From assembly GCF_964020005.1 (NCBI RefSeq), contig NZ_OZ026474.1:248001-312000 (forward strand): a DNA stretch of 64,000 nt. The letters are read 5' to 3'. A program made the translations under genes and the position numbers. Source of the stretch: Spiroplasma endosymbiont of Atherix ibis (GTDB lineage: Bacteria; Bacillota_I; Bacilli_A; Mycoplasmatales; Mycoplasmataceae). Position 1 is the first letter of the stretch. Each line of letters opens with the position of its first letter. The notes under the pieces were generated by a model. It saw only the letters and a list, made by a program, of their open reading frames with translations, was not told the DNA's origin and searched no databases. Shown in pieces: positions 6,877-59,338 of the stretch.

Positions 6877-8250
<1,374 letters not shown>

Positions 8251-8268
8251 TAAAAATATAAATTTTAC

Positions 8269-8296
8269 TCGAACCTTAAAAAGGTTCGTTTTTTAT
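8269..8296 (+). terminator. Rho-independent terminator after eno
   Basis: Stem cgaacctt / aaggttcg followed by six Ts. Only 24 bases separate it from the next start codon, so the next genes depend on readthrough or on a promoter overlapping the hairpin. Confidence 0.8.
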
Positions 8297-8320
8297 TTAT
8301 AATTAAATAAGGTGATTTTT

Positions 8321-9211
8321 ATGTTGAAAAAGAGGAAAAATTGAACATTAATATTTTTATTATTAGTTTTTTTATTGTATTTTATAATAATTGCAATTTA
8401 TGATTATAAAATTGCATTAATGATAGGCAATAATTTGACAAATAGTTTCTTTTCTCTTTTTTTTGATAAGATAGGTTCACTTATAATAATTTTTCCTATT
8501 TATATAATCTGTTTAGCGTATTTTTTAAAACTTATAAATACAAAAAAAATTAGCAGTATAGTTAAAATATTAGTAATTGTATTATTTGATTTAATTTATA
8601 TTGCAATTTCTTTTTATTTATTTGTTAGTATTAAAAATTCTAACAATGATTTATCAAATAAAATTTCTATAGCAATTATGTGTTTATTTCTTACATTATT
8701 AATTTTTTGAATTAGTTATATATGAATTAAACTTTTATTATCTAATAATATTGAAAGAATAAATAGAATATTTTATTGTGCAAATATTAGTATTGTATTT
8801 ATGATTTTATGTTGAACAAATTTAATATTGTTCAAGTATATATTTGGAAGAAATAGGCCTGAAGCAGTAATTGAACTTAAAAACTCATTTCAGTATGTAT
8901 TTCAAATAAACTTTAATAGAGTTGGTAAACAAAGTACAAGTTTTCCTTCTGGTCATACTATGGCAATCGCTCAATTAATTATTTTATTATATTTTATAAT
9001 TTTTAAAAATAAAAAGTGAGAGAATATATTTAGAATTTTATTATTTTCATTAGTAATAATTTTAATTATGTTAATGGCAATTTCAAGAATGACAATGCAA
9101 AAACATTTCATAACAGATTTATCATTTTCAATGTTTTTAATTATTCTATATTATCTTGTAACACTAAAAATTGTAGAAAAATTATATAAGAGGATAAAAA
9201 GAAATGGCTAA
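8321..9211 (+). CDS. PAP2-family membrane phosphatase
   Basis: The 296-residue protein has about six hydrophobic helices. All three motifs of the PAP2 lipid-phosphatase superfamily are present: KYIFGRNRP (KX6RP), SFPSGHT (PSGH) and SRMTMQKHFITD (SRX5HX3D). The likely substrates are phosphatidic acid, phosphatidylglycerol phosphate or an isoprenoid pyrophosphate at the membrane; the sequence does not decide between them. The start has ggtg upstream. The last eight bases overlap ruvX, so the two are translationally coupled. Several Trp residues are TGA codons. Confidence 0.88.
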
Positions 9212-9626
9212 ATATATTGGATTAGATTTGGGAAGTAAAACAATAGGAATCGCTACAAGTGAAGGTTATTTTGCAAATCCTAAAGAAACAATTAGATATC
9301 AAGAAAATAATTTTCTTGAAGCTATTACAAAACTAAATTCCTTTCTTAAAAAAGAGGGATTTGAAAAAATAATAGTTGGATATCCAAAAAATATGGATGG
9401 TTCAAAAGGGCATAGAGTTGAAATGGTTGAAGAATTTATTGATAAAATGATTGAGCAAAAGATTATTTCAAGTGACTTAATTGAAAGAGTAGATGAAAGA
9501 TTAACAACAAGAATGGCAAAACAAGTTATGATTTCTGCTGATTTAAGTAGAAAAAAACAAAAAGAAAATAAAGATCAAATTGCTGCTAAATTAATTTTAG
9601 AAACATATATCAACTCAATTAAGTAA
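9204..9626 (+). CDS. ruvX: Putative Holliday junction resolvase YqgF/RuvX
   Basis: The 140-residue protein has the YqgF RNase H-like fold: GLDLGSKTIGIATSE at the N-terminus with the first catalytic Asp, IVGYPKNMDGSKGHR in the middle, and DERLTTRMA followed by KDQIAAKLILE with the C-terminal Asp. The family acts in pre-16S rRNA maturation and is annotated as a Holliday junction resolvase. It starts inside the end of the PAP2 gene and is followed 35 bases later by hpt, forming a three-gene operon. Confidence 0.93.
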   Translation: MAKYIGLDLGSKTIGIATSEGYFANPKETIRYQENNFLEAITKLNSFLKKEGFEKIIVGYPKNMDGSKGHRVEMVEEFIDKMIEQKIISSDLIERVDERLTTRMAKQVMISADLSRKKQKENKDQIAAKLILETYINSIK

Positions 9627-9661
9627 GTATATAATCAATTTGTAAATAAGTGGAGGTATAA

Positions 9662-10231
9662 ATGAAAAATCATCCTTTAGTTAAAGAAATTCTATTTTCA
9701 AAAGAAGAAATAGAGACAAGAACTAAACAGTTAGCAAAAGAAATAGAAAGTTATTATAAAAGTAAAAATGTAAATGAAAATACAGTTATTCTTATAGGTC
9801 TTTTAAAAGGTTGTATTCCTTTTATGGCAGATTTTATTAAATATTTTGACCATGAATGTCAAACAGAATATATGGTCGTTTCTTCCTATTTGGGAGGAAC
9901 AAAAACAACAGGAGAACCTAAAATTAATTTGGATTTAAATATTTCTATTAAAGATAAACATGTATTAATAATAGAAGATATTATTGACTCTGGAATAACA
10001 TTAAAATATGTTAAGAATTATATTTCTTTTAAAGGAGCAAAAGAAGTTAAAGTAGTAACTCTTTTAGATAAACCTGAAGGAAGAACAGTTAAGATAGATG
10101 CTGATTGAAGTGGTTTTGTTATTAAACATGAATTTGTTATTGGCTATGGATTGGACTATGATGAAAGATTAAGGAATCTTCCTTATATTGCAGTTTGTGA
10201 TGTAGATAAACTTAAAGTTTGAAAATGATAA
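9662..10231 (+). CDS. hpt: Hypoxanthine(-guanine) phosphoribosyltransferase
   Basis: The 189-residue purine salvage enzyme makes IMP/GMP from hypoxanthine/guanine and PRPP. The PRPP-binding motif [14 protein letters not shown] is typical, and a flexible-loop segment (VVSSYLGGT) and a C-terminal [11 protein letters not shown] complete the family pattern. Ribosome site ggaggt lies six bases before ATG. The C-terminal third is reached only by reading TGA as Trp (DADWSGFV, KVWKW). Salvage of this kind is expected in mollicutes, which lack de novo purine synthesis. Confidence 0.95.
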
Positions 10232-14387: not shown

Positions 14388-16331
14388 ATGAAAATAAAAT
14401 TATTAGATGGAAAAGTAATGAGTTTTGAAACTCCAAAAACTGTCTTAGAAATTGCTCAAGAAATATCTATATCATTAGGTAAAAAATGTGTTGGAGCAAT
14501 TATTAATAGTAAAGAAGTGGTTCCAGCTAAAGCAACTATAGATAAAGATTGCAAATTGGAATTAATTACAGAAAGACATGAATTGTTTAATTCTGTTGTA
14601 AATTACACTGCTAAAATAATTACAAGTTTTGCTTTAAAAACTTTATTTCCACAAGGAAGTCTTTATCCTGAATCTGAAGGATATGATAAACCAGAGTTCT
14701 TTGTGTATTATGACTTACCAACCAAATTAACATTAGAAGACTTGAAAGAAGTAGAAAAATTAGCAAATGATTTTATTAATAAAAAAATAGAAATTAAATT
14801 TGAAGATACAGTTATTACAGATGAAAAATATAAAGAGATAATGAGCTCTATTAATATTAAAAAAAAATATATAGATATTATGTTGGAAAAAAATAAAAAT
14901 AGATATATAAAATTTCCAGTTGGATCATTAAATAATGTTATATATTATTCTAGATATGCTAATTTAAATAATACAGGTGATTTATTTAAAATTGAATTAA
15001 ATGAAATAACTGCCTTTCAAATAGAAAATAATAAATATGTATATAAAATTCATGGTTTAACTGCAACTAGTGAAAAAGAACTTGAAGAAAAGAAAAGAAA
15101 AATTGAAGAATTAAAAGAAAGTGATCATAAATATATTGCTAAAAATTTAGAAATATATCATTTAGATCCTTTAATTGGACAAGGTTTACCTATTTGATTG
15201 CCAAATGGTACTATTTTAAAACAAGAAATTAAAAAATATTTAATGGAAAAAGAATATGAATATGACTTCATTCAAATTGAAACTCCTGTAATTGGAACAA
15301 GTAAACTTTATAAAACTTCAGGACATTGAGATCATTATAGAGATGATATGTTTGCCTCTATGAATCTTCCAAAAGAAGAAATGGTTTTAAAACCAATGAG
15401 TTGTCCTCATCATATTTCAGTTTATAGATATAAGCCAAGAAGTTATAGAGATTTACCTTTAAGATTTGCAGAACATGCATTACAACACAGATATGAATCA
15501 TCTGGAAGTTTAACAGGACTTGAAAGAGTTAGAGCAATGGAATTAACAGATTCACATATTTTTGTAAGAGCAGACCAAGTTAAAGATGAATTTATAAGAT
15601 GTTTTAATTTAATAACAGAAGTTTTAAAAACTTTTGATATTAAAATTGATTATTTATCTTTATCATTAAGAGATCCAGAAGATAAAGAAAAATATTTTAA
15701 TGATGATAAAATGTGAAATTCTGCAGAAGCAGAACTTGAAAAAGTTTTAAATGAATTAAAAATTAATTATAAAAAAATGATTGGTGAAGCTGCATTTTAT
15801 GGACCTAAATTAGATATTCAAGCAAAAACTGCTTTAGGACATGAGATTACAGTTTCAACAATACAATTAGATTTTTTATTACCTCAAAAATTTGAACTTA
15901 TTTATATAAATTATGCTGGAGAATTAGAAAGACCTATTATGATTCATAGAGGTCTTGTAGGAACTTATGAGAGATTTATTTCAGTTCTTTTGGAACAAAC
16001 AAAAGGAGTTTTACCATTATGATGTACTCCTCAACAAGTTGAAATAATTCCTGTAAATATTTCTAAAAAAGATTATGCAGAAAAAGTAAGAGAAGAATTA
16101 AAATCAAAATTAATAAGAACAAAAATAGATCTTAGAGATGAAAGATTGAGTTATAAAATTCGTGATGCACAAGTTAGAAAAATACCTTATCAATTAGTAT
16201 TAGGAGATAAGGAAGCTGAAAATAATATGGTAACATATAGAAAATATGGTAGTGAAGAACAAATTACTATAACTCTTAAAGAATTCATTAAAATGGTTAA
16301 AAATAAAGTTAAAGAAAAAATATATAATTAA
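14388..16331 (+). CDS. thrS: Threonyl-tRNA synthetase with a degenerate editing domain
   Basis: The 647-residue enzyme charges tRNA-Thr. Layout: TGS domain at 1-60, N2 editing-type domain at about 65-230, class II core at about 250-530 (zinc segment MSCPHHI, motif 2 [27 protein letters not shown], motif 3 GLVGTYERF), and an anticodon-binding domain at about 540-647. In the N2 domain the HSxxHLL motif that hydrolyses Ser-tRNA-Thr reads NYTAKII, and the CRGPH motif reads roughly YSRYANL. The serine-editing site therefore appears lost while the charging site is intact. Ribosome site ggtgga. No T-box leader was seen. FNT follows after 20 bases, possibly co-transcribed. Confidence 0.94.
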
Positions 16332-34777: not shown

Positions 34778-35059
34778 ATGCATGCAAGAATAGAATTTAA
34801 ATATATGAGTTTTTCCAGAGGTTCTAAAGAATTTAGACTTTTATACAAAATTGAAGAATTTAGTTCTTATCAATTAGAATGAGAAGAAATCATTAAATTT
34901 GAATTACCTATTTTCAGTAAAGTTAAAGAATGTCTAATTTGATTAAAAAATAATTTATATGAAGTGTATGAAATGCTGGATCTAGAAATTCCATTTGAGG
35001 CTATTGAATTTAAATTTCAAAGAAGTCCAAAAAGTATGGGAGTTGATTTATATGAATAG
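34778..35059 (+). CDS. Prophage protein of unknown function (93 aa)
   Basis: A soluble, mixed-charge protein beginning MHARIEFKYMSFSRGSKEFR. It follows the 22-bp repeat and a ribosome site (aaagag). It overlaps the resolvase gene by eight bases, so it is the first gene of the early operon. Not recognised; the position suggests a replication or recombination accessory. Confidence 0.65.
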
Positions 35060-35516
35060 TTACTATTTAGGAATCGATATTTCTGGAACTGGAACAACCT
35101 CAATTTTTGATGGTTTTAATATTCATACATTTTTTAGTAAAGAGTGAAAAGAACATTTTAAATTCATACAAAGAATTAGAAGTCTATATCCATCAATTAA
35201 TGAGTGTATTATTTTTGAAGAAATGAGACCCTTACAAAATAATGTAGCTAATACAGATATGGTTTCATATGCAAAGTTAATAGGTGCTATCGAAATTAAA
35301 TATAAAAATATATTTAAAATTAATTCATTTATGATTAAAAACTTTAAAGATAAAATTCGAAATAATAAAAAATCAATTGATGAACTCATATTTAAGACTG
35401 GTCGTGCTAGGGGTTGATTTTGGTGCTCCAAACGCATTAATGAGCATGAAGTAGATGCAATTATCATTTACTATTATGGATCAGCAAAAAAAGAAAATCA
35501 GATAAAAATTATTTAA
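35052..35516 (+). CDS. RuvC-like Holliday junction resolvase (phage type)
   Basis: The 154-residue RNase H-fold protein has GIDISGTGTTSIF with the first Asp, a central CIIFEEMRPLQNN with Glu, and a C-terminal NEHEVDAIIIYYYG with the last Asp. This is the catalytic pattern of phage and poxvirus-type RuvC resolvases, which trim branched DNA before packaging. It overlaps the upstream gene by eight bases. The G+C-rich element begins right after its stop. Confidence 0.8.
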
Positions 35517-35519
35517 ATC

Positions 35520-35880
35520 CTATTTATATAGATTGGGTAGAGACACCTTATGCGACTTGCGAAAGCAGCAAAATTGTACTCCGGTTATGGTATACGTGAA
35601 CCATTAGAGACCGCATCTATTAAAAGGCGGGGTAGTTTTGGGGTTGCGCTCAAAACACGTCTAGCATTAGCTAGAGGTAGATAGTTTTAACTATGGCAGT
35701 CTGAACTCTTACGAGTTGCAAAAGCGAGACTCCTGAAAAGGTTTTTGGGGCAGAAAATGTAAATTATGCTCGCGTGCATGCTGGCCGTTGCGTGGTGACG
35801 GAAAGAATGACACTTTGCTCTTTTGTAGGGCAAAGTGCGTCTAACCTTAGCGGGCTCTGGAAAGAATGTGATTTTTTTCG
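35520..35880 (+). ncRNA. G+C-rich, hairpin-dense noncoding element, long form
   Basis: About 360 bases, clearly richer in G and C than any neighbour, without a plausible gene. Hairpins seen: ttgc-gaaa-gcag (35557-35568), atggt/accat (35587-35604), ccgc/gcgg (35611-35630), gttttg/caaaac (35635-35656), tctagc/gctaga (35660-35675), atagtt/aactat (35681-35694), aactc/gagtt (35704-35717), cct-gaaa-agg (35732-35741), ccgt/acgg (35785-35801) and cactttgc/gcaaagtg (35811-35837). Two GAAA tetraloops are typical of folded RNA. It shares blocks and a hairpin with 42782-42915. Phage-borne large structured RNAs (GOLLD, ROOL) are precedents; identity unknown. A DNA function such as packaging site or origin is the alternative. 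Confidence 0.6.
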
Positions 35881-37707: not shown

Positions 37708-38691
37708 ATGGCATTAAAAGATTTTAAAAATCAAAAAGGTTTTATTGATCTAAACAATGCAACTTCAAGAACTGAAGTTGTTCAAGGAATTTATAATGAA
37801 GTTTATCCAACAAAAATTGGTTTTGAAGATTTAATTCCTTTTGAAACTGTTAGAGAACGTAATCAAAGAGTTACTAGAAGAAAACCTTTAAAATTTACAG
37901 TAACAACAGGTGAAGATATTGGTAAAATTTATGAACAAAAAGGTGTAATTTTTGAAGAATATTCAAAAGCTGAATATATAGAAGAAAATATCACAATTGA
38001 TAAAGCATTTACAATAGCGAGAAAATATTCACCACTCGAAACTTTAACACCAGAATTAATTGCAGCTGATTTATCATAGGCCGCTGTCGCTGAAACTCAG
38101 TATAAAAGAAAAGCATTATTAGATACAGCATTAGAAGCTCATAAGTTAGTTTTAGGTAAATTAGATTTAAGAAAAGATGCTTTAAAAATTCATGATAAAA
38201 TAATTGATCATTGTTATGAAATGGGAATTAATATTGAAAACTTATGAATTTTTTCAGATATTGAATTAAATAGAGGTTTTAGAGACCAATTAAAATTAAC
38301 AATTGGAGCAACACAACAAATTCAAGATGTATTAGACGGTAAAGACGTAACTATATCAGGTATTCAATCATCAGTTGAAGGAATTAATTATGTTGGTATT
38401 CCAAAAAAAGTAGCAGTATTAGATCCCACTGGCAAAGCTGGAGTTACTACAAATTTATTACCAAAAGGAATAATTGTTTATTTAGTTGAAATGAATCCAC
38501 AATATCGACCATTTAAAGCTATGGAATGAACACATACGCCATTAAGATGTAAAAAAAATCCAGTCGGTAATGGAGAGGGTTCTGTTGATATTATGGAATA
38601 TGCAAAAGGTTATGATGTTAAATTGATTGAATCATTAAAAGTATTTGCTGTTACTGTTGAACCTGAAACACCAGAAGAATCAGAAGAATAG
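37708..38691 (+). pseudogene. Major capsid protein, interrupted by one TAG
   Basis: The frame encodes about 327 residues. It starts ALKDFKNQKGFIDLNNATSR and ends EPETPEESEE, with one in-frame TAG at 38077-38079 between IAADLS and AAVAETQYKRK. The size, the place after the scaffold, and the region VQGIYNEVYPTKIGFEDL followed by a central domain with GINYVGIPKKVAVLDP fit a tailed-phage capsid. No internal start with a ribosome site was seen after the TAG. A terminator overlaps the final stop. If the TAG is not read through, no capsid can form. Confidence 0.65.
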
Positions 38692-40961: not shown

Positions 40962-42692
40962 ATGTATACAAAAAGCAAAAATTTATTATCTAAAAATTCA
41001 ATATCTAAATTTAGTATAGATATAGAAAATATTAACAAAATTGGATTTACCTGAGATTTATTTATTAATTTAGTTCCATGACCATTCAGAAGATTTATTT
41101 GTACTGGCAAAAAAGATAGGATAGCAGAAACTGCTCGTTATACTGGAAAGAGTTGATTATTTGCTCTTGATAAACTTTTTAGATTAATTACATTTAAAGA
41201 TGAAAATTCAATTGTTGGTCGTTATAATTTTTCAACGCATAAAAATACTACCTGAGTTCAATTTCAAAAAGTAGCAAATTTATTAGAACAAGAATTTGAT
41301 ATCCAAATTGGACCTGAAAATATAAACGGATTAAAATGAATTATGACAAAAGATGAAGGTTATATTTTATGAAATAAAAGAAAAATAAAATTTGAATCTA
41401 TTGGAAAGTTTAAAGATTCTACACTGGGTATGGAATTTGTTGTTGGGGTATTAGGTGGAATTTGAGTTGATGAAGCTTCTAAGCAACCAAAAGAATCAAC
41501 AACAGAAGATATTGGTAAATTAATATATGATAATGCAGATACAATTTTAGGTTCTGCTGTTCGTTCAGAATATTCTGGTTTTAATGAACCAATACCAGAA
41601 TTTGTAACTGAAATTCCTGTTGTTAATGAAGATGGTTTCTATGTTTTAGATCGAAATGGTAAAGAGTTTCCTGTATGAGATGAAAAAAATAGAAAATTAA
41701 TACAAGTGAAATTTAAAACAGAAAAAATAAATTATTTTAAAACAACACATTTATATTTTTCATTAAACGGTTGAGATCCTGAAAATATGTTACATGAAAA
41801 ATATTTTGAAGATTTATAAGAATTAAACTTTGAAATTAAACAGCAAATGCTAAATTTGAATTCTGCATATTTTGAAGATAAGAATTTAGATTGCGCTTTA
41901 ATTAGGGCAACATCATGAATGGCTAAAGCATGTGGAATTATGTCTTCAAGAACTGAAATGCATTTGATAAATGTAATGGTGAAAAACCCAGGTAAAGCAG
42001 AAGGGATAGTTCTAGGATATATTGCAGAAGATGATAATTTAAGTTTATTTACATATAGACCACATATGGATAATACAAATATTTTTAATTTAAAAGACTC
42101 GTTGACTGATAAGAAAACAATATTAATAGATAAAAAGGAATATATAATAAAACATTTAACATTTGGTTTAGATTGAGGTTTTTCAAAAATAAAAGCAAAA
42201 AATTCAGCAATAACAGTTGAAGGCTATTCTGATTGAAATAGTGAACATAAAGCATATGAGTATACATTTTCATTGGGAGATTGACATGCAATAACAAAAT
42301 CAAATAAAGTAGATTCAGAAGAAATTAAAATTCTAAATGCTGCTAAATTTATCTATGAGACTTTTAATAAATGAAAGAGATATTTACATTATATACCTAT
42401 AGTATGATATGACTTACAAGATAAAGTAACTGCATGACAAGTTCAAAAAGAGTTAGAAAAATTGGGGCTAAAATTTAATTTTTTACCAGGTGCAAAACAT
42501 GTACAAAAGAAATGAGATAGATCAGATAGACAAGCTTGAATGCAACAAATTTTAGCTTCAAAAAGATATTTTATAGATCCTAGAATTTCGCCTTTGCTTT
42601 ATAAAGAAATAACACAATCAAGATTAGCTAAAGGTAGTTTACAAGCGGACAAAAATTCAAAAGATGATGCAATTACTGCATTAGGGTATTAA
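40962..42692 (+). pseudogene. Terminase large subunit, interrupted by one TAA
   Basis: The frame spans 576 codons with one TAA at 41817-41819 (KYFEDL-stop-ELNFEIKQQ). ATPase part: Walker A-like ARYTGKSWLFAL and Walker B GGIWVDEAS. Nuclease part (RuvC-like): HLTFGLDWGFS with the first Asp, IVWYDLQD, and a C-terminal NSKDDAITALGY. This is the DNA packaging motor and headful nuclease. The TAA falls between ATPase and nuclease domains, so neither a complete motor nor a clear separate nuclease start is available. It starts behind the second 22-bp repeat with aggag. Confidence 0.85.
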
Positions 42693-42729
42693 AGAACGAT
42701 GACTAGATATCATGTTAAAAAATCTTTTA

Positions 42730-42747
42730 TCTTCTAAAAAACCAAAC
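42730..42747 (+). repeat. 18-nt terminator module without its 3' stem
   Basis: The same tcttctaaaaaaccaaac as at 37136 and 40364, again right after a gene end, but here the pairing half is missing and the G+C-rich element follows. Confidence 0.6.
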
Positions 42748-42781
42748 CTCTTTATTTTAATAAAATTGATTATTATAATTG

Positions 42782-42915
42782 CAGTAACGTGACAAATGCA
42801 AAACACGCGTAGCAAAAAAACTGTTCCGCCTTTTGTTCTCTTTGGGGAGCAAGCCGGAGCGGGCTCTGGCGAGCAAGGGGTCCCCAGAACGAAAACAGAA
42901 AGTGGTCCCAGTTGT
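42782..42915 (+). ncRNA. G+C-rich noncoding element, short form
   Basis: About 130 bases, roughly half G+C, between terminase and portal genes. It shares with the long element caaaacacg..tagc (42799-42813; two mismatches) and agcgggctctgg (42858-42869; identical), in the same order. Just before the second block it has a hairpin ttgttctc / gggagcaa (42833-42852) matching the position of cactttgc / gcaaagtg in the long form, with several paired bases differing. Also tctgg / ccaga and gttg / caac hairpins. An ORF of 63 codons across it is not credible. RNA or DNA packaging signal; not identified. Confidence 0.55.
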
Positions 42916-42964
42916 TTTTGCAACAGCGTCAAAAACCTAAACTCAAATAAAATAGGAGGCATAT

Positions 42965-44104
42965 ATGATAAAGATAACGCCAGTTGAACGTAATGCTGAT
43001 GATAATTACTTTGAAGCTTTACAAGTCTTGAATCTTAAACCATCTAATGCAGGTTCATTAATGATAGATAGTTTGGCATCTGAACGCGCGAACTCATTTG
43101 ACTGAAAAAATATAGAAACTAACTCACATAAGTTTAATAAATATATAAAAGATAAACCGTGATTTATAGAAGATTTATATGATTTATCTAAACGTTCATT
43201 GTTAAAAGAAAGAGTATGATTTGTAATTATCGATGATTACATTGAACCTTGCTTAATTAATCAAATTTCAGTTAGAAATAGAGATAAAAAAATTTTAAAG
43301 GCTATTATTACTGTTGCAACCATAAACTTTAAAGATTGTGACTGATTAGTTCAATATAGCTATGATATTACAAAAGATAAAGTTGAATTTAACTTAGATT
43401 CATTACAAAAAAATGAGCAAAAAATAGATGATATAGAACGAATTATAAGGGACAAAATTTTAGAAAATAATTGAAATCCAAAACAAAATGGAATTCCAAT
43501 TGTACAATGAAATTCATTTCCCAAAAATACTAATTTCTATGACTTAGCAATTGAGAAGGCAGAGAAATTAAACATTGTAAATGATGTAATAGTTGACCAA
43601 ATTCTTAATTTAATGCAAAAACAACAAGAATTTAATTCTGATCAAGAAACCGGTAATCCTGATTCTGCTACAAACCTGAAAGATTCAAAAAATAGATATA
43701 TGAAAATATCTAATCAAGTATCTTCAATGACGACAGAAGAATGAACTAAACAAATAGCTTTATACTCACCTAATTCTTTGATATTAAAAGAGTTTAGAGA
43801 TACTGCTGATTGGTTAGAAGAAGACATAAAAAAACATGGTAAGGCTATTAAGGATGATGATAATGATTCAGCTCAAAAAAATAATGCAGAAATATTAAAT
43901 ATTAATAGAAGCGCAACTGATGCATTAGAACTTAATAAAGATCAATATGAAAATAATTTAAGAATATTAATATCACTATTTGATAAAACAGAAATTGAAA
44001 ATGTTAATGTTAAATTGCCATTTAGAACTATTAACAAAACAATCATAGATAATGCAGAAGAGATAATGATTAAATCAGGCAATTCAAAAGGGGGAATAAA
44101 ATAA
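42965..44104 (+). CDS. Probable portal protein
   Basis: The 379-residue protein follows the terminase, the standard portal position. It begins MIKITPVERNADDNYFEALQ. It has no membrane segment and carries a portal-like segment (NGIPIVQWNSFPKNTN followed by AIEKAEKLNIVNDVIVDQIL), where portals have I-P-V-V then an Asn-rich loop and a helix. It ends with a long helical region. It is shorter than most portals. The stop overlaps the next ATG. This structural gene has no lesion. Confidence 0.6.
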
Positions 44105-59229: not shown

Positions 59230-59338
59230 AAAATGGTATAAAATAATTTAGGTTGCTAGTTTCAACCGCACTTTTGTATGTAAAAAAAAGTAGTTTGAAA
59301 AATAACTCACATACAAGGCGAGTCTAGACTGGAGGAAT
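59230..59338 (+). promoter_or_regulatory. L21 ribosomal protein leader with promoter
   Basis: A -10-like tataaaat lies at about 59235-59242. The leader then reads gttgctagtttcaaccgcac, ttgtatgt with its partner acatacaa, and ggcgagtctagactggagg just before the rplU ATG. These blocks match the Firmicutes L21 leader, which couples rplU operon expression to L21 supply. Confidence 0.78.

Follow-up and report, generated by a model that had tools for sequence, protein, structure and literature searches.

A structured stretch of DNA is situated between the terminase gene and the next gene in a prophage of the Spiroplasma endosymbiont of Atherix ibis (contig NZ_OZ026474.1). In a preliminary description this short element was regarded as a second, shorter copy of a long noncoding element of the same phage, and from the presence of two related elements, one of them next to the terminase, a possible role in packaging was raised. 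This leads to the questions whether the two elements belong to one family, and what the short one would do for the phage.

The prophage and its terminase region

The window, i.e. the whole stretch of 64,000 nt that was analysed, originates from a mollicute in which TGA is read as tryptophan (code 4). From the gene content on either side, the prophage extends over roughly 34.3-50.5 kb of the window. Judged against its relative in genome G005 (locus L066), it is a decayed and cryptic prophage. The capsid gene (37708-38691) and another structural gene are broken in this comparison, and an in-frame TAA at 41817-41819 splits the gene for the large terminase (40962-42692, plus strand). The latter has both an ATPase and a nuclease half (PHROG terminase, 4.7e-7; Pfam Terminase_6N, 2.1e-4). 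Its homologue in G005, with about 41-50% identity, is an intact frame of 599 amino acids that matches Terminase_3 (1.2e-6). Of the genes scanned with profiles, none was recognised as coding for a small terminase. Elsewhere in the window, the ribosomal protein L21 leader (Rfam RF00559) was found at 59254-59335, the sole Rfam match at gathering level.

The element had been placed between terminase and portal. PHROG and Pfam confirmed the terminase side, whereas the portal side follows from position: the downstream gene (42965-44104, plus strand), which is preceded by AGGAGG, had no match in the PHROG and Pfam profile searches. A two-sequence AlphaFold model of its product had a pLDDT of 32 and was unusable. 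The gene is 27% identical to the G005 gene at the same place and is called the putative portal gene below.

The rod and its counterpart in G005

The gap between the terminase gene and the gene at 42965 contains a rod of about 130 nt. The GC content of the short element is 51%, against a window mean of 24%, and only 6 of 7983 stretches of the same size reach this value. On the plus strand, positions 42800-42935 are predicted to fold as an RNA rod consisting of one continuous imperfect stem (MFE -54.9 kcal/mol). The z-score of the fold was -3.8 for the short element and -4.3 for the trimmed rod, and the pair probabilities along the rod were mostly above 0.9. The 5' outer arm (42805-42823, ACGC.GU.GCAAAAAAACTG) pairs with the 3' outer arm (42909-42929, CAGTT.G.TTTTTGC.A.AC.A.GCGT). 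Between these arms and the tip is a core, of which the 5' side (42826-42850, CCGCC TTTTGTT CTCTTT GGGGAGC) is common to the window genome, G000, and G005, and the 3' side (42881-42905, TCCCCAGA..AACAGAA A GTGG) was recognised as conserved by comparison with G005. The core helices are CCGC/GTGG, TTTTGTT/AACAGAA and TTTGGGGA/TCCCCAGA. The rod is closed by a variable terminal hairpin in the predicted fold (42853-42870, GCCGGAG-CGGG-CTCTGGC). All these parts are on the plus strand. The preliminary description let the element end at 42915, which truncates the 3' strand of the rod; this runs to about 42929, and the 3' outer arm is thus partly beyond that end. The local hairpin ttgttctc/gggagcaa that it proposed had a pairing probability of 0.0 in the full element, as those bases belong to the rod.

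A positional counterpart is present in G005 between the terminase gene and the next gene (L066, 6974-7166, minus strand; 190 nt). The local alignment score of the two short elements was reached by none of 500 shuffles. When their helices were compared by hand, the helix order and the core were found to be the same in the G005 rod. The arms and the tip are of quite different sequence and yet pair; in place of the terminal hairpin of the window, the G005 tip is GGCAAAAAAA-TTTA-TTTTTTTGTC. The core common to both reads, in order, CCGCC(C)TTTTGTT, GGGGAGC, TCCC and AACAGAAAGT. MAFFT put this core out of register, which precluded a covariance model of the short family. None of 500 shuffles confined to the arms folded as well as the real sequence, in the window or in G005. 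Shuffles confined to the tip did so in 70 of 500 cases for the window and in 2 of 500 for G005. Because of these 70 shuffles the tip hairpin of the window is unsupported. The two elements are homologous, with the same position, a conserved core and paired arms, and they are noncoding. The view that a noncoding element under selection for structure adjoins the terminase gene was borne out.

The noncoding nature was considered against the reading that the region encodes a small protein. It is crossed by a frame of 93 codons (42712-42993), and G005 has one of 85 codons there, both open in code 4. An 11-residue match at the first block (KKTVPPFVLFG/EKTLPPFCCMG; E 0.011 in a single comparison) was the only clear resemblance between them. 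However, the frames in which TTTTGTT, GGGGAGC and AACAGAAAG lie are not the same in one phage as in the other, no Shine-Dalgarno sequence precedes either frame, and there was no Pfam match. As the conserved blocks change frame between the phages, nucleotides and not codons are conserved. This indicates that the element does not encode a protein; the small-gene reading is largely refuted and has next to no probability left.

Of 298 genomes of the order, G000 and G005 alone had the 5' pattern of the core, and its place was the same in the two. With a looser two-sided pattern, 320 genomes of the order yielded the same two and G604, which fails the fuller descriptor. Genomes G001-G059 represent one per species, and further members may therefore exist in other strains. 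In viral contigs the core patterns gave 10 and then at least 120 matches; L201 alone among the fetched stretches agreed with one of two fuller descriptors, the looser one, and this match was taken as chance. No relatives were found in viral contigs, genome contigs, or phage and plasmid records when these were searched with the terminase, capsid, putative portal and RuvC-like proteins. No known Rfam family matched the rod of the window or that of G005. Sub-threshold microRNA matches to the G005 rod were far below gathering and were taken as chance matches to any long hairpin. On these patterns, the rod would constitute a small RNA family, with a core specific enough for searching and two known members, one of them in a decayed prophage.

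Relation to the long element

The long element (35527-35880, plus strand), which had no Rfam match in the window, is a separate structured noncoding family that adjoins a RuvC-like gene (about 34995-35516). Homologues were found in G004, G034 and G045 (95, 93 and 78%, respectively), with the RuvC-like gene adjacent, and a diverged homologue was found in G058 (L067, about 9490-9945, minus strand), the alignment of which was better than 300 of 300 shuffles. Besides L067, its loci outside the window, all on minus strands, are L062 (about 15193-15563), L064 (about 9575-9960) and L065 (about 9685-10045). In four genomes the RuvC-like gene is the neighbour of the long element; the surroundings in G058 differ, and the element is close to rpsO there. 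The 3' hairpin of the long element varies (CACTTTGC/GCAAAGTG versus CAGTTTGC/GCAAACTG) and is paired in both forms.

The blocks on which the claim of a single family was based do exist. AGCGGGCTCTGG is present exactly at 35849 and 42858, and AAAACACG(N2-3)TAGC at 35652 and 42800. The order of the blocks is the same, with a spacing of about 197 bases in the long and 58 bases in the short element. AGCGGGCTCTGG is a 12-mer, located in the 3' half of the variable terminal hairpin of the short rod, which holds most of it. A common substring of at least 12 was seen in 10 of 3000 dinucleotide-shuffled pairs, about 1 in 300 before allowing for the places where a reader looks. The local alignment score of the long and short elements was reached by 5 of 500 shuffles. 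The end-to-end score, however, was reached by 169 of 500, the outcome that the preliminary description itself had named as contradicting a shorter copy. The end-to-end alignment of the long element with the short element of G005 did not exceed shuffles either. Moreover, AGCGGGCTCTGG is absent from the short homologue in G005 and from the long homologue in G058, and in the long homologue of G034 it has two changes. Each element aligns above shuffles with its own positional relative (the short one with that in G005, the long one with that in G058), and both relatives are without the 12-mer. Because the 12-mer is absent from each outgroup, the shared block is conserved in neither family at depth; the elements form two families. 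That the short element is a shorter copy of the RNA family of the long one has become very improbable, in spite of the exact 12-mer and the second block in the same order. The record is thereby corrected to two unrelated structured elements, about 7 kb apart, instead of one family.

Possible roles of the rod

The strand bears on whether the element acts as RNA or as DNA. For G005 the fold of the plus strand is the stronger one (z -9.1 versus -6.9 for the minus strand, with 7 versus 1 G-U pairs), and the core retains U-G and G-U pairs in both rods. This favours RNA of the plus strand. In the window the two strands are equally unusual (z -4.3 and -4.2). The inverted repeat could alternatively work as DNA, i.e. 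as a pac, cos or origin signal for terminase or replication proteins. Packaging sites are typically found next to the terminase gene, and rods of another family in the Spiroplasma citri clade occur also on plasmids, with no terminase noticed in their neighbourhood, as would be expected of a cis signal for DNA transfer. But the U-G and G-U pairs of the core would be mismatches in DNA, the arms pair imperfectly and differ in sequence between the phages, and the plasmid-borne rods belong to a different family. We regard a DNA signal as unlikely.

A possible sigma-70 promoter, TTTATT-17-TATAAT, was noticed by eye just upstream (42751-42779, plus strand); its -35 is weak and it falls below the scan threshold. 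At the matching spot just before the G005 rod is TTGATT-17-TATAAT (10/12). Promoter matches in the window and in G005 were no more frequent than in shuffles. The scan of both found no terminator on the strand of the rod, and the distance from the end of the rod to the downstream ribosome-binding site is about 24 nt in the window and 8 nt in G005.

Transcribed from a promoter of its own and released, the rod could act in trans as a packaging RNA, a part of the terminase-portal motor that would resemble the pRNA of phi29 in its working and be unrelated to it. The phi29 pRNA has 174 nt, of which 120 nt suffice, and it has been called a feature unique to phi29-like phages (PMC11476376). Like pRNA, the rod is a phage-encoded structured RNA of similar size (130-190 nt) that adjoins motor genes: it is found between the terminase gene and the putative portal gene in both phages. 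The promoter-like sequence before the G005 rod, the promoter-bearing rods beside the terminase gene in other spiroplasma prophages and the failure to recognise a small-terminase gene among the genes scanned are also consistent with such a role. On the other hand, both members are predicted to be single rods, whereas pRNA has a three-way junction with interlocking loops, which was not predicted here. No match to the phi29 RNA family was obtained with the Rfam covariance model at gathering or at E<=5, and the window terminase retains its nuclease half, unlike gp16 of phi29. Nor is the window rod matched by the covariance model built for the rods of the S. citri clade. A packaging role as such is suggested by position, and a packaging RNA acting in trans is possible but doubtful. 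Slightly less probable is the specific proposal that a small lineage of spiroplasma phages, in which the terminase bears a nuclease and no small terminase was recognised, uses a packaging-motor RNA that does not belong to the phi29 group.

Other structured stretches were seen near terminase genes in spiroplasma. In the S. citri clade, an imperfect inverted repeat of about 210 nt (L137-L166) is present dozens of times in the genomes, mostly immediately 3' of a phage terminase gene; it contains a promoter-like motif, and an example is L077, about 8200-8410. Among the 30 loci fetched, a terminase gene was within the stretch in 20 of 28 distinct places. Where such a rod stands beside a terminase gene, it is followed by other genes. 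Plasmids of S. citri and its relatives carry the family as well, among them pSci2, on which conjugation genes are found. One further relative, in G024, was detected with the covariance model of the family; several of its pairs are altered in both partners. In three prophages (L071, L079 and L080) a third, sequence-distinct structured stretch precedes the terminase start by about 50-450 bases, with TTGACT-17-(T/G)AGAAT and GC-rich closing arms. This suggests that rods beside terminase genes recur in spiroplasma phages, in groups for which a relationship is unproven. With the present rod, those of the S. citri clade have in common the imperfect inverted repeat, the promoter-like motif and the frequent neighbourhood of a terminase gene; in contrast, their covariance model (R1) matches neither the window nor the G005 element and they have plasmid copies too. 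Because of these copies, that family at least appears not to be packaging-specific. As its members precede other genes and occur on plasmids, the window rod need not lead the downstream gene.

The reading that we consider most likely, with a probability of about 0.45, is that the rod acts in cis as an RNA within the late transcript, as a leader or a processing rod upstream of the putative portal gene, and that its core is bound by a protein. It is placed first because the rod ends close before the ribosome-binding site and no terminator was found there. In both members the element is structured, noncoding and directly before the downstream ribosome-binding site. The same gap is occupied in the two phages despite terminases that are about 41-50% and next genes that are 27% identical. 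Arms of unlike sequence pair in both, the core pattern is confined to two of 298 genomes, the plus-strand fold is the stronger one in G005, and the U-G and G-U pairs of the core are kept. Against it stand the number of sequences, two, one of which is in a decayed prophage, the promoter matches at chance level and the equally unusual folds of the two strands in the window.

As a cis-acting RNA, the rod would be a structured part of the late transcript of the phage, located after the stop codon of the terminase gene and ahead of the downstream ribosome-binding site. In the outer arms and the tip, pairing alone would be required. The core (UUUUGUU/AACAGAA, the CCGC/GUGG side and GGGGA/UCCC) is kept nearly letter for letter, unlike the arms and the tip, and is for that reason probably a protein-binding site. 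Candidate binders are a host double-strand RNase that would cut the transcript there, or a phage head protein. In cis, the rod would separate the expression of the terminase from that of the downstream gene and would protect or control the downstream mRNA. We infer that the rod is transcribed, is bound by a protein and has a regulatory outcome.

The RNase III processing sites (R sites) of phage T7 are intercistronic hairpins in the phage transcript, with double-stranded arms and an irregular centre. In these general features the rod is like them; it differs in being longer and in its core, which is conserved nearly letter for letter, and its cleavage is putative. Should the rod prove to be part of a packaging motor, motor RNA could no longer be viewed as unique to phi29-like phages. 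As a cis-acting element, it would add another case of structured control between head genes in these little-known phages.
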